NCBI GenBank assembly: GCA_949902595.1
Contig: CATLDC010000002.1
Location: 62,001 to 126,000, forward strand
DNA from: an uncultured Candidatus Melainabacteria bacterium
GTDB lineage: Bacteria > Cyanobacteriota > Vampirovibrionia > Gastranaerophilales > Gastranaerophilaceae
Direction of reading: 5' to 3'
Length of the DNA: 64,000 nucleotides
Every line of letters starts with the position of its first letter. Position 1 is the stretch's first letter. The notes beneath the pieces are model-generated. The model had not been told where the DNA came from. It was given only the letters and a program-made list of their open reading frames with translations, and did no database searches. Shown piece after piece: positions 10,030 through 43,375 of the stretch. A program made the position numbers and the translations under genes.

Positions 10030-10093
10030 CTTAACTCCTTACATGAAGATTATAGCAAAAACAATACTTTCAGACCTCTATTGTAACAAATTG

Positions 10094-10120
10094 TAAAAAT
10101 TTTGTCCCAAAAGCGTTATT
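10094..10120 (+). promoter_or_regulatory. sigma-28-like flagellin promoter
   Basis: TAAA at 10094-10097, 15 bp, then GCGTTATT at 10113-10120. The spacing is that of sigma-28 (FliA/SigD) promoters (TAAA-N15-GCCGATAA), with a diverged -10 part. The same arrangement, plus about 30 bp of leader, recurs at 42975-43001. It implies a leader of about 80 nt before the flagellin ATG. Confidence 0.5.
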
Positions 10121-10206
10121 AATTTTCAAAATGTGGAATTAAGAATATATAAGCACAAATGCAAGGATGCATTCGTAGGATGCAAATGCCAGAAAGGAGT
10201 ATTAAA

Positions 10207-11094
10207 ATGGCAATTACTATCAACACAAACCTATCGTCCCTCTTAGTTCAGTCCAACTTGACAAAAGCAACAAGTTCATTGAACAAAGCAATCGAAAGAA
10301 TGACCACAGGTTACAAAATTAACCACGCAGCTGACAACGCAGCAGGTTATTCAATCGCTACCAACTGGGAAACACAGCTCGGCTCTCTTGATGTAGCAGC
10401 TGACAACGCAGCAACAGGCGCAGACATGTTGACAACACTTGAAGATACTTATTCACTTGTATCATCACACTTACAACGTGTCAGAGACTTGACCGAACAG
10501 GCTGCAAACGGAACTTATGGTTCTGACTCACTTAAAGCAATCCAATCAGAAATCACAGCAAGACTTGAAGAAGTTGACCGTATCGCTGCTAACTGCGAAT
10601 TTAACGGCCTAAGAATGATGGACGGTTCTATGAAAAACGACATCTCTCTTCAGGTAGGTTTATACAGTGAAGATTCAAGCCAGATTAAATTGGACAAATC
10701 TTTGTTCAAGAAAGGCGACATTGCAACATTATTCACTGATTATGGCAGTATAACAGGTGCTACTGTTGAAGAAGTTGCAAAACAATGTTCCGGCTACGAC
10801 GGTGCAAAAATTACCGGCAACCAGAACCAGATGTTAGACAAAATTGATGCTGTTATGAACGAAATTTCAGCACGTGCAACAACCCTTGGTGCTGCACAGA
10901 ACAGAATCGAGTCTGCTGTAGAATCAATTGGTGTACAGTCTAACAACATCACATCATCACTTTCTACTCTGAGAGACGCAGACGTAGCAGAAGAATCTTC
11001 AGCATACATCAAAGCACAGATTCTTCAACAAGCTTCAGCAACATTGCTTGCTACTGCAAACCAACAGCCAAGCATTGCATTGAACTTGTTATAA
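10207..11094 (+). CDS. flagellin
   Basis: A 295-aa flagellin made almost only of the conserved D0/D1 helices: N-terminal INTNLSSLLVQSNL and GYKINHAADNAAGYSIA, C-terminal IGVQSNNITSSLSTLRDADVA and QQASATLLATANQQ. The variable surface domain is nearly absent (compare about 300 aa for the short Bacillus flagellin). The ATG at 10207 is set by the AGAAAGGAG ribosome site and the canonical MAITINTN start. It is exported by the flagellar type III system and forms the filament. It stands alone, with its own sigma-28-like promoter and terminator. A long conserved leader suggests added post-transcriptional control. Confidence 0.95.
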   Translation: MAITINTNLSSLLVQSNLTKATSSLNKAIERMTTGYKINHAADNAAGYSIATNWETQLGSLDVAADNAATGADMLTTLEDTYSLVSSHLQRVRDLTEQAANGTYGSDSLKAIQSEITARLEEVDRIAANCEFNGLRMMDGSMKNDISLQVGLYSEDSSQIKLDKSLFKKGDIATLFTDYGSITGATVEEVAKQCSGYDGAKITGNQNQMLDKIDAVMNEISARATTLGAAQNRIESAVESIGVQSNNITSSLSTLRDADVAEESSAYIKAQILQQASATLLATANQQPSIALNLL

Positions 11095-41361: not shown

Positions 41362-42261
41362 ATGAAACTAATCATTGACGAATTAACAGACGAAAAACGA
41401 ATCGACGCCTACCTTGCTGATTATATGCAGGATTTTTCGCGCTCCAAAATCCAGACCGAAATCAAAAAAGAAAACATACTTGTTAATTCAAAACCCGTCA
41501 AAGCTTCTTATACAGTAAAATCCGGTGACGTAGTTGAAATCAACAAAACCATCCAAACCGCAAAAATTCTCCCGCAAAACATCCCGCTTGAAATCGTGTG
41601 GGAAGACGAAAATATGCTCGTTGTAAACAAACCGTCAGGAATGCTTACACACCCGACAACAGTCGAAATGTCCGGCACACTTGTTAATGCGCTCCTGTTC
41701 AGATATGGCGAAAACCTCTCCGACGTAAACGGAGAATTTAGACGCGGAATCGTGCACAGGCTCGATAGAAACACTTCCGGCCTGCTAATGGTTGCAAAAA
41801 ACAACGAAACCCACCTTTATCTTGCTGAAAAAATGAAAAACCACCAGATGACCAAAAAATACCTCGCTGTTGTCAAAGGCGTGATTGCAGAAGATGAGTT
41901 TGTAATCAACAAACCAATCGCAAGAAACCCCAATCAGCCGCATAAAATGGGAGTATTTGAAACCGGCAAAGAAAGTATTTCCAGAGTAAAAGTTTTGGAA
42001 CGCCTCAAAGACGCTTCGCTTATCGAAGTACACCTTGTCACAGGGCGCACACACCAGATAAGAGTCCACCTTTCAAGCCTCGGGCATCCGGTTTATAACG
42101 ACACGCTTTACGGATTCGGAAAAGTCAAAATCAAAACAGACGAGCAGGTTTTGCAGTCATACAAACTGACTTTCCCGCAACCGTTTGAGGGCAAAGAAAT
42201 CTCGCTCGAAATCCCGCCGGACGATAAAATAACCAAGGTTCTAAAGGCATTGAGGGCTTAA
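41362..42261 (+). CDS. RluA/RluD-family 23S rRNA pseudouridine synthase
   Basis: A 299-aa enzyme with an N-terminal S4 RNA-binding domain (about 10-65, KRIDAYLADYMQDFSRSKIQTEI) and a catalytic domain with the active Asp in VHRLDRNTSGLLM (about 133-145), plus KKYLAVVKG and the C-terminal RTHQIRVHLSSLGHPVYND. This layout fits RluD, which modifies helix 69 of 23S rRNA, but RluA-family members are hard to separate by eye. The transcript is probably leaderless. It overlaps the convergent gene by four bases. Confidence 0.9.
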   Translation: MKLIIDELTDEKRIDAYLADYMQDFSRSKIQTEIKKENILVNSKPVKASYTVKSGDVVEINKTIQTAKILPQNIPLEIVWEDENMLVVNKPSGMLTHPTTVEMSGTLVNALLFRYGENLSDVNGEFRRGIVHRLDRNTSGLLMVAKNNETHLYLAEKMKNHQMTKKYLAVVKGVIAEDEFVINKPIARNPNQPHKMGVFETGKESISRVKVLERLKDASLIEVHLVTGRTHQIRVHLSSLGHPVYNDTLYGFGKVKIKTDEQVLQSYKLTFPQPFEGKEISLEIPPDDKITKVLKALRA

Positions 42262-42902
42262 ATATTAAAAGATTTTCTGGAGCCTTCTTCGTGGTACAAG
42301 CCGCCGCCGCAGATTGTTTCAACCACCTTGAGCACAAACTCGCGCGAAGCGTCAGAGCTGTTCAGGAAAAACTCTCTGTTTGCAAGGTGCCTGATTTTGA
42401 ATATTGAGTTCTGGGTCTTGTCAGCCGGAACAAAAAGTGACGCAACTTCTTTATCAAGAAGCATTTGCATCATCTCGTGGCGCGAGGTTATACCTTCCAT
42501 AAGCTCATTATAATTCCCGTTAATCGCCATTATACGTCCGGAGAACATTGGCTGGGCGCCTTCTCTGAACAAAGCCTGCGGTTCGTAATTACATCTTGTG
42601 GTGAGGCTTATTGTGTGCCACAGAATATTAATAATCACAACACTTTTTTCCTTGTCGTGCTCCACATAAATGTTTTCGGTTGTAATCCCGCGCGCAGAGA
42701 AAGATTGCTTGAGCGAATCAGCGATTGCCTTGAAGTTATCAATCATCTCCGCGAAAATCTCGGTAGTGTTCAAAGTCGCATGCTGATAGTCCAAAAACTG
42801 TTTATACATGTGAGTTGAAACAAGCCCGATGCGCTCCTGGATTAGTGTGGATTTTCTAAAGGAAGTTTCCATGTTATTGAAATTTTCGTAGCCTTTACTC
42901 AA
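42258..42902 (-). CDS. hypothetical protein, 214 aa
   Basis: No family recognised. The protein is soluble, alpha/beta in pattern, with IYVEHDKEKSVVIINILWHTISL in the middle (beta strands) and helical ends. The TTG at 42902 is chosen because GGAGG lies nine bases upstream and the first ATG (42872) has no ribosome site. A TTGACA-N17-TTATAT promoter lies further up. The upstream region is shared, divergently, with the sigma-28-like promoter of the 28-aa gene. Confidence 0.6.
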   Translation of the reverse strand: MSKGYENFNNMETSFRKSTLIQERIGLVSTHMYKQFLDYQHATLNTTEIFAEMIDNFKAIADSLKQSFSARGITTENIYVEHDKEKSVVIINILWHTISLTTRCNYEPQALFREGAQPMFSGRIMAINGNYNELMEGITSRHEMMQMLLDKEVASLFVPADKTQNSIFKIRHLANREFFLNSSDASREFVLKVVETICGGGLYHEEGSRKSFNI

Positions 42903-42974
42903 AGTTATAAAGCCTCCTGATATAATTGTACACTCAAAACAATGTCAATGTAAACTGATGATTGTAAAGAATTG

Positions 42975-43001
42975 TAAAAATTTTGACACAAAAGCGTTAT
43001 C
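42975..43001 (+). promoter_or_regulatory. sigma-28-like promoter, second copy
   Basis: TAAA (42975-42978), 15 bp, GCGTTATC (42994-43001). About 75 bp from the upstream TTGTAAA repeat to ATATATA line up with the flagellin promoter region, including TTTTGnCnCAAAAGCGTTAT and AAATGTGGAAT. Confidence 0.5.
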
Positions 43002-43074
43002 AAAATTGAAAAATGTGGAATAGGAAATATATAGGGTAAAACAAACAGCAATCTCACGGAAAGGAGAGTTAGTT

Positions 43075-43161
43075 ATGGAAATTTTAAACTTAGTTTTATT
43101 CGGATGTGTTTTCTACATGGCACTAATCGGGATACCGAGCCTTTGCGAGAAGCGTAAATAA
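43075..43161 (+). CDS. hidden small membrane peptide gene, 28 aa
   Basis: ATG at 43075 has an AAGGAGAG ribosome site six to eight bases upstream. The 28-residue product is one hydrophobic helix (LNLVLFGCVFYMALIGIP, about residues 4-21) followed by LCEKRK, so a single-pass inner-membrane peptide with its basic end probably inside. Its promoter and leader are nearly the same as those of flagellin. It may take part in motility or in the flagellar regulon; no known small flagellar protein is matched. Confidence 0.6.
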   Translation: MEILNLVLFGCVFYMALIGIPSLCEKRK

Positions 43162-43165
43162 CGCT

Positions 43166-43375
43166 TCATGGCACCGGATCATACCCGCCTTCGTTGAGCG
43201 GGTGGCAGCGGCATATCCTTTTTATACCAAGCCATCCGCCTTTTAGCACGCCGTATTTTACAATTGCCTGCCTCATGTATTCAGAGCAGGTAGGATAAAA
43301 CCTGCACCTTGCAGGAGTTAGTGCAGAAATCTTCTGGTATATCCATATTAAGCCTAAGAGCAGTTTTTTTATCAT
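43166..43375 (-). CDS. yidD: membrane protein insertion efficiency factor YidD
   Basis: A 69-aa YidD: an amphipathic/hydrophobic N-terminus ([15 protein letters not shown]), then the hallmark [15 protein letters not shown] and [20 protein letters not shown] with three conserved cysteines. It assists YidC-dependent insertion at the inner membrane. It is not next to yidC or rpmH here. It ends five bases from the convergent 28-aa gene. Confidence 0.95.

Follow-up and report, generated by a model that had tools for sequence, protein, structure and literature searches.

A 28-codon gene preceded by a flagellin-type promoter block encodes a predicted single-pass membrane microprotein whose family occurs in nearly every member of a gut-bacterial family. 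In some genera its promoter links the peptide with late flagellar genes, and the peptide persists in genera without flagellin: it seems to have outlived flagella, and probably serves something more basic than swimming. The gene lies in a window of 64,000 nucleotides (the whole stretch of DNA analysed, from an uncultured Candidatus Melainabacteria bacterium), and at 87 bases including the stop it falls short of the 90 bases that a common gene finder requires, which could account for its being passed over in annotation. Its distribution raises a testable question, namely why a flagellar-type sigma factor stays once flagella are gone.

Table 1. Features of the peptide locus, of the flagellin locus that carries the same block, and of further loci near the block (positions are those of the window unless a locus handle is given)
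Feature	Position	Strand	Basis or remark
TTGTAA upstream box, holding the start of the TAAA of the sequence-only reading	42972..42977	+	own-genus loci, flagellin-type blocks
GTTAT, probable -35 element, inside the GCGTTAT of the sequence-only reading	42996..43000	+	conserved pair across genera
TGTGGAAT, probable -10 element, leader in the sequence-only reading	43014..43021	+	17-20 bases after GTTA/GTTT
Predicted transcription start, ~16 bases past the T of TGTGG	43030	+	predicted from sRNA loci
Ribosome-binding site GGAAAGGAG	43058..43066	+	sequence
28-codon gene, single-pass membrane microprotein MEILNLVLFGCVFYMALIGIPSLCEKRK	43075..43161	+	sequence, conservation in 30 own-genus loci, family-wide relatives
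Divergent 214-aa gene, no assigned function	42258..42902	-	beside peptide gene in 49/50 named own-genus loci
yidD, convergent, neighbour not conserved	43166..43375	-	PF01809
Same block before flagellin	10091..10139	+	TTGTAA 10091-10096, GTTAT 10115-10119, TGTGGAAT 10132-10139
Flagellin gene with shared block	10207..11094	+	PF00669 and PF00700
Probable sRNA loci	L127 (G000:C5, from about 1576), L270, L271, L070 (about 224), L111 (about 4055)		
G-run block loci	own genome L115, L118, L119, L124; G015/G052 L257, L264, L269, L272, L273, L274, L276		

A small-protein family without profile matches

The 28-codon frame is a coding gene. Across 30 loci of its own genus the peptide frame has a pN/pS of 0.13 (pN 0.093 against pS 0.699), the majority base accounts for fractions of 0.89, 0.97 and 0.65 at codon positions 1, 2 and 3, and 13 columns are invariant, while stops interrupt the alternative frames (+1 in 30/30 loci, +2 in 22/30). 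The sequence-only reading had named a conserved block over an unconserved frame as the pattern that would point to an RNA instead; we looked for this pattern and it did not occur, the frame being conserved in relatives. The same reading's description of a ribosome site, a 28-codon frame and one hydrophobic helix also holds (Table 1): AAGGAG precedes the start codon in the own-genus loci inspected, and the frame contains a single hydrophobic stretch with a 19-residue Kyte-Doolittle maximum of 2.23, against a range of 1.96-2.30 in five variants of the peptide.

Across the family the peptide is 28-33 residues long, and among 20 diverse members Tyr14 and Pro21 are invariant, with Met1, Leu6 and Phe9 near-invariant. 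The charge of the C terminus ranges from +2 to -3 between variants, so that the positive-inside rule yields no common orientation. These sequences constitute a small-protein family with no profile match in Pfam or NCBIfam, the best E values for the 20 members being 0.027 (YldA, two members) and 0.054 (CrgA, one member); comparison with the PDB revealed no relative (best E 0.72), and a search of papers, apart from their supplementary files, for three stretches of the peptide sequence found none containing any of them.

The peptide gene is flanked by two minus-strand genes (Table 1), and only 4 bp separate it from the end of yidD. Among the own-genus loci examined, yidD adjoins the peptide only at L001 and at the near-identical L033 and L062, and the gene downstream varies between species. 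The 214-aa neighbour on the other side has no match in Pfam or NCBIfam. In other genera, each represented by one locus, 16 of 20 loci have a divergent protein of ~113 aa next to the peptide gene; this protein carries paired cysteines and the motifs CCSxC and CGKSFG (L152, L160, L181-L200), and it matches Zn_ribbon_3CxxC at an E value of 0.0015, below that model's cut-off. This recurrence argues for a stand-alone gene with a stable context. The Zn-ribbon-like protein is found at none of the 50 named own-genus loci; since the divergent neighbour there is a different gene, the neighbour gives no stable clue. Many of the relatives among the 50 peptide loci come from the rumen, and the source organism, a member of the Gastranaerophilales, is likewise of rumen type.

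Presence of the peptide independent of flagellin

Flagellin (PF00669) is present in 94 of 239 own-family genomes, belonging to 19 of 41 genera. Of these 239 genomes, a narrow peptide profile (A2, E up to 0.1) detects the peptide in 188, from 37 of 41 genera: both genes occur in 63 genomes, the peptide only in 125, flagellin only in 31 and neither in 20. A wide profile (A6), for which L198 and identical sequences of the one-per-genus set were omitted and a selection of the others was taken, finds the peptide in 167 of 172 own-family genomes, all except G126, G131, G171, G377 and G508, a count that presumes, following the order of the listing, that all unmatched own-family genomes rank before more distant ones. 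Among the 153 genomes examined in both the flagellin and the A6 searches, the peptide is present in all 52 flagellin-positive and in 98 of 101 flagellin-negative genomes, the absence of flagellin here being used as a stand-in for the absence of flagella. Because A6 recovers the peptide in every flagellin-positive genome of this set, the 31 flagellin-positive genomes lacking it under A2 can be put down, for the most part at least, to limited sensitivity. The few A6 matches beyond the family are weak (G487 and G495, of the same order, E about 6e-4; G469, E 1.4e-3). Most genomes yield a single peptide match, and the sequence is most uniform in flagellin-negative genomes, where it reads MEAINLILFGFIVYTALIVVPSIWEELTTEG, or nearly so, in 12 genera. 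Retention in 98 of 101 genomes without flagellin indicates that the peptide is not flagellum-specific.

A block shared with late flagellar genes

The upstream similarity that first drew attention to this locus is borne out. TAAA-N15-GCGTTAT stands at both 10094 and 42975, corresponding to C2:72094 and C2:104975 in the genome, as the sequence-only reading had it, and the near-identical block that it described around these sites was recovered when the interval 42930-43175 was searched against its own genome (2.10 Mb in 41 contigs), the flagellin and peptide blocks aligning with 82% identity over 72 bp (E 2.7e-13). Copies from that query lie at eight places in the genome: the query's own, the flagellin's and six more. 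The short pattern taken by itself was dropped as evidence, since genome-wide TAAA-N13..17-GCGWTAT has 22 occurrences and its reversed control 16, and the whole block was used instead.

We built a sequence-only model of the block (R1, from alignment A3) on 31 copies, eight of these from the own genome, leaving out near duplicates (L033, L044, L047) and own-genus loci without TGTGGAA (L052, L054, L057); the invariance of TGTGGAA in R1 is a result of this selection. Searched against the own genome, R1 gives 16 sites with E < 3e-9 and one partial site at 3e-5, with noise above 3e-3. Eight of the 16, as training copies, match by construction, and the new ones are L112, L117, L118, L121, L122, L124, L125 and L127. 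On reading, seven sites precede flagellins (L115, L117, L118, L119, L120, L124, L125), three of which Pfam confirms (L117, L125 and L120, the flagellin of the window). The gene behind the block at L123 is flgK (FlgK_D1 E 7e-32; TIGR02492 score 170.2, just under the cut-off of 170.75), and L112, L116 and L121 precede three large exported-looking proteins that start near KGCK, two of them with Chlam_PMP (Chlamydia PMP-type) repeats. Other sites precede a 101-aa protein (L126), the peptide (L113) and a probable sRNA (L127); the locus at L122 is cut off at a contig end, and L114 shows no clear gene.

Two further own-genus species (G015 and G052) have ten block matches each; downstream of these are again flagellins, FlgK-like genes and the peptide, joined in G052 by a relative of the 101-aa protein. 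In genus g29 the block stands before the peptide and just before a flagellin match. Over all 12 genomes searched with R1, six matched, two of them own-genus; the ten flagellated genomes of other genera yielded matches in four (G081, G085, G088, G096) and none in six, so the own-genus form of the block is not general for flagellated genera. A regular expression for the block found nothing, or only an unrelated place, at L253-L256, L260 and L263. Within this genus the late-flagellar promoter group includes the peptide. Its proposed place in the flagellar regulon is therefore upheld for the promoter block that it has in common with flagellins, and is not upheld for flagellar biology as such, since 98 of 101 flagellin-negative genomes retain the peptide.

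Re-reading the promoter

The elements of this promoter are probably other than those proposed before. The sequence-only reading took TAAA and GCGTTAT for the -35 and -10 elements of a sigma-28 promoter; this assignment is probably wrong, and we favour GTTAT as the probable -35 and TGTGGAAT as the probable -10 on the pattern of conservation between genera. Of 50 peptide loci, 48 (30/30 of the own genus, 18/20 of others) have a TGTGG/TGGG-type box with GTTA or GTTT 17-20 bases upstream of it, whereas in dinucleotide shuffles the pair turns up on average in 0.60 loci out of 30 and 0.40 out of 20 (maximum 2), a control that tests chance and not choice, the patterns having been written after the sequences were viewed. 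TGTGGAAT of the own genus becomes GGGnATAAT in other genera, and 12 loci from flagellin-negative genera share the conserved letters TGTT, GG-ATAATAT and ATGT, in this order. TTGTAA, by contrast, lies at -36 to -48 from TGTGG in 30/30 own-genus loci, and also in flagellin-type blocks, but is found at the fixed place in only one of the 18 other-genus loci that have the pair, that of the flagellated genus g29. The flagellin promoters of genus g25 (L174) have GTGTTATAA and CCGTGGAACATG.

Near-identity between the sRNA loci begins 16 bases past TGTGG in four of five (the fifth, L070, is without TGTGG), which is about where transcription would be expected to start if TGTGGAAT is the -10 element. The distance from TGTGG to the ATG of the peptide is 34-86 bases, and neither the length nor the sequence of the leader is conserved.

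Sigma factor, CsrA and a possible residual regulon

The genes that the sequence-only reading proposed looking for, fliA and csrA, are both present in the own genome: a FliA-family sigma gene (TIGR02479) at G000:C18:12956-13618, and csrA (PF02599) at G000:C4:39461-39616. All 29 genomes tested, 14 flagellin-positive and 15 flagellin-negative (loci L201-L206 among them), have a FliA_WhiG (TIGR02479) match above the curated cut-off, and its presence in every one of them means that it does not discriminate; in G128 the sigma copy fits a WhiG model best, though short of the WhiG cut-off, and clears that of FliA/WhiG. The csrA gene is found in 14/14 flagellin-positive and 0/15 flagellin-negative genomes. 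Thus CsrA tracks flagellin; FliA and the peptide do not.

The suggestion that GGA motifs in the peptide's leader might bind CsrA would not hold for the conserved GGA under the re-read promoter. The conserved GGA sits in TGTGGAAT, and if this is the -10 element, the GGA of AAATGTGGAAT would be untranscribed promoter DNA rather than leader, and could not bind CsrA. The flagellin leader (10139-10206) contains two GGATGC motifs before the ribosome site (GCAAGGATGC, GTAGGATGC; AAGGATGC, TAGGATGC) that, set beside the CsrA-site consensus, resemble CsrA sites.

A second model (R2, from A5) was built from 12 loci, leaving out L182, L197 and L200 (in A4 only), L193, L194 and L199 (in neither A4 nor A5), and L190 and L198 (no pattern). 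In each of eight flagellin-negative genomes R2 gives one strong site, in 8/8 cases the peptide's (E <= 7e-8). Weaker sites (E 1e-3 to 4e-2), any single one of which could be chance, in some cases recur before similar proteins in different genomes: in G063 and G128 they precede both an RWYD and a CLCCG protein, and in G074 an RWYD protein. A pilin-like protein follows such a site once. Judging from these sites, a small residual regulon in flagellin-negative genomes is possible.

Small proteins with repeated RWYD motifs were seen behind weak peptide-type promoters in three flagellin-negative genomes (L217, L226, L230); one of them, searched against NCBIfam, has no match.

Proposed role and alternatives

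We lean modestly towards the view that the peptide is a core-family membrane microprotein under a FliA/WhiG-type promoter, an accessory or regulatory subunit whose flagellar link runs via the sigma factor only. It would be a single-pass inner-membrane protein of 28-33 residues in the family's core gene set, its promoter read by a FliA/WhiG-family sigma factor through GTTA(T) at -35 and TGTGGAAT (GGGnATAAT elsewhere) at -10, with the additional TTGTAA box upstream of the pair in the own genus. The protein would consist of one membrane helix bearing the invariant Tyr14 and Pro21 and, on the model of the general behaviour of such microproteins, may be a small subunit that assists or regulates a larger membrane protein found in flagellated and non-flagellated members alike. 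Flagellated members would co-express it with late flagellar proteins through their common sigma factor, and not as a flagellar part. A further-reaching idea, which we offer as speculation that will probably fail, is that the sigma factor is kept without flagella for its oldest and still essential target, a microprotein of ~30 residues; the flagellar genes would then be one wing of an envelope-centred regulon, and the microprotein would signal or tune the state of a membrane machine that every member has.

The chief competitor would make the promoter of the peptide an ancestral housekeeping one and the peptide a constitutive core product, the flagellar genes of this genus having evolved or captured a similar promoter and FliA playing no part in non-flagellated genera. 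The -10 of flagellin-negative genera, GGGnATAAT, is close to TATAAT, their TGTTA-N-GGGnATAATATA would also serve as a housekeeping promoter, they lack the TTGTAA box, and each of the flagellin-negative genomes searched has a single strong R2 site. Against this, a plain promoter would not usually have the conserved GGG or a GTTA at 17-20 bases, the weak sites recur before RWYD genes (G063, G128, G074) and CLCCG genes (G063, G128), and FliA is retained in flagellin-negative genomes; we regard this competitor as rather unlikely, though worth keeping in view. Considerably less probable is a flagellum-specific late gene product, a helper of assembly, motor or export: the block common to flagellins and flgK in three own-genus species, and partly in g29, speaks for it, yet we reject a flagellum-specific function on account of the peptide's presence in 98 of 101 flagellin-negative genomes, where its sequence is moreover most uniform (MEAINLILFGFIVYTALIVVPSIWEELTTEG or nearly so in 12 genera).

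The short length and one hydrophobic helix would suit a type I toxin-antitoxin pair with the peptide as its small hydrophobic toxin. Toxins of this kind tend to be patchily distributed and multi-copy, whereas the peptide is near-universal, mostly has one match per genome and is under strong purifying selection, and we consider a toxin highly improbable. We give even less credence to the idea that the frame is incidental, part of a regulatory RNA or a leader peptide. The length of the stretch between TGTGG and ATG, 34-86 bases, could be cited for it, but the low pN/pS of 0.13 and third-position variation, a frame conserved while leader length and sequence are not, and downstream genes that vary between species all argue the other way.

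The peptide and its promoter have partial parallels in known systems. In E. coli and Bacillus the sigma-28 consensus is TAAA-N15-GCCGATAA, with boxes 19 bases apart from start to start. As in that regulon, the block here precedes flagellins and flgK, FliA_WhiG is in the genome and the spacing of the peptide's promoter pair is related (17-20 against 19); the letters differ, with GTTA(T) in place of TAAA and TGTGGAAT in place of GCCGATAA, a third box (TTGTAA) is present, and one member, the peptide, persists in flagellin-negative relatives. Bacterial single-pass microproteins such as KdpF, CydX and AcrZ, of about 28-50 residues, likewise have one helix and are conserved within clades, and the peptide resembles them in size, helix and conservation in its clade, but unlike them has no Pfam or NCBIfam relative (best E 0.027). 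Chlamydia is without flagella, and there too a FliA-family sigma factor is retained in their absence. The present family differs in still having flagellated members, which allows its regulon to be set side by side in members that have flagella and members that do not, and in that the conserved target is a microprotein. The sigma-28 factor of Chlamydia is described in PMC10597470.

Further elements near the block

A probable sRNA of about 75 nt is near letter-identical in five loci (Table 1), four of which have the block upstream. It reads TATAATCTCTTTTCTTTATTTTCTCCTCCACTCC...GCCGCAACnGATTGCGG, is rich in pyrimidines, includes an anti-Shine-Dalgarno CUCCUCC and has a terminator hairpin. Rfam gave nothing over threshold for the sRNA at the five loci tested, and over the window it gave only a tRNA. 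Sigma-28-dependent sRNAs are described in E. coli (PMC10578931), and flagellar sRNAs in Campylobacter (PMC11187230).

Runs of 9-16 G occur 89-125 bases past the block in eleven block loci (Table 1), preceding a recognised flagellin start in seven of the eleven; the same is seen at L175 (genus g25), where the block was not found. From their sequence, the G runs look like a device for phase-varying flagellins by strand slippage in a leader frame. At L117 a leader frame of 41 codons, without a G run, overlaps the flagellin start.
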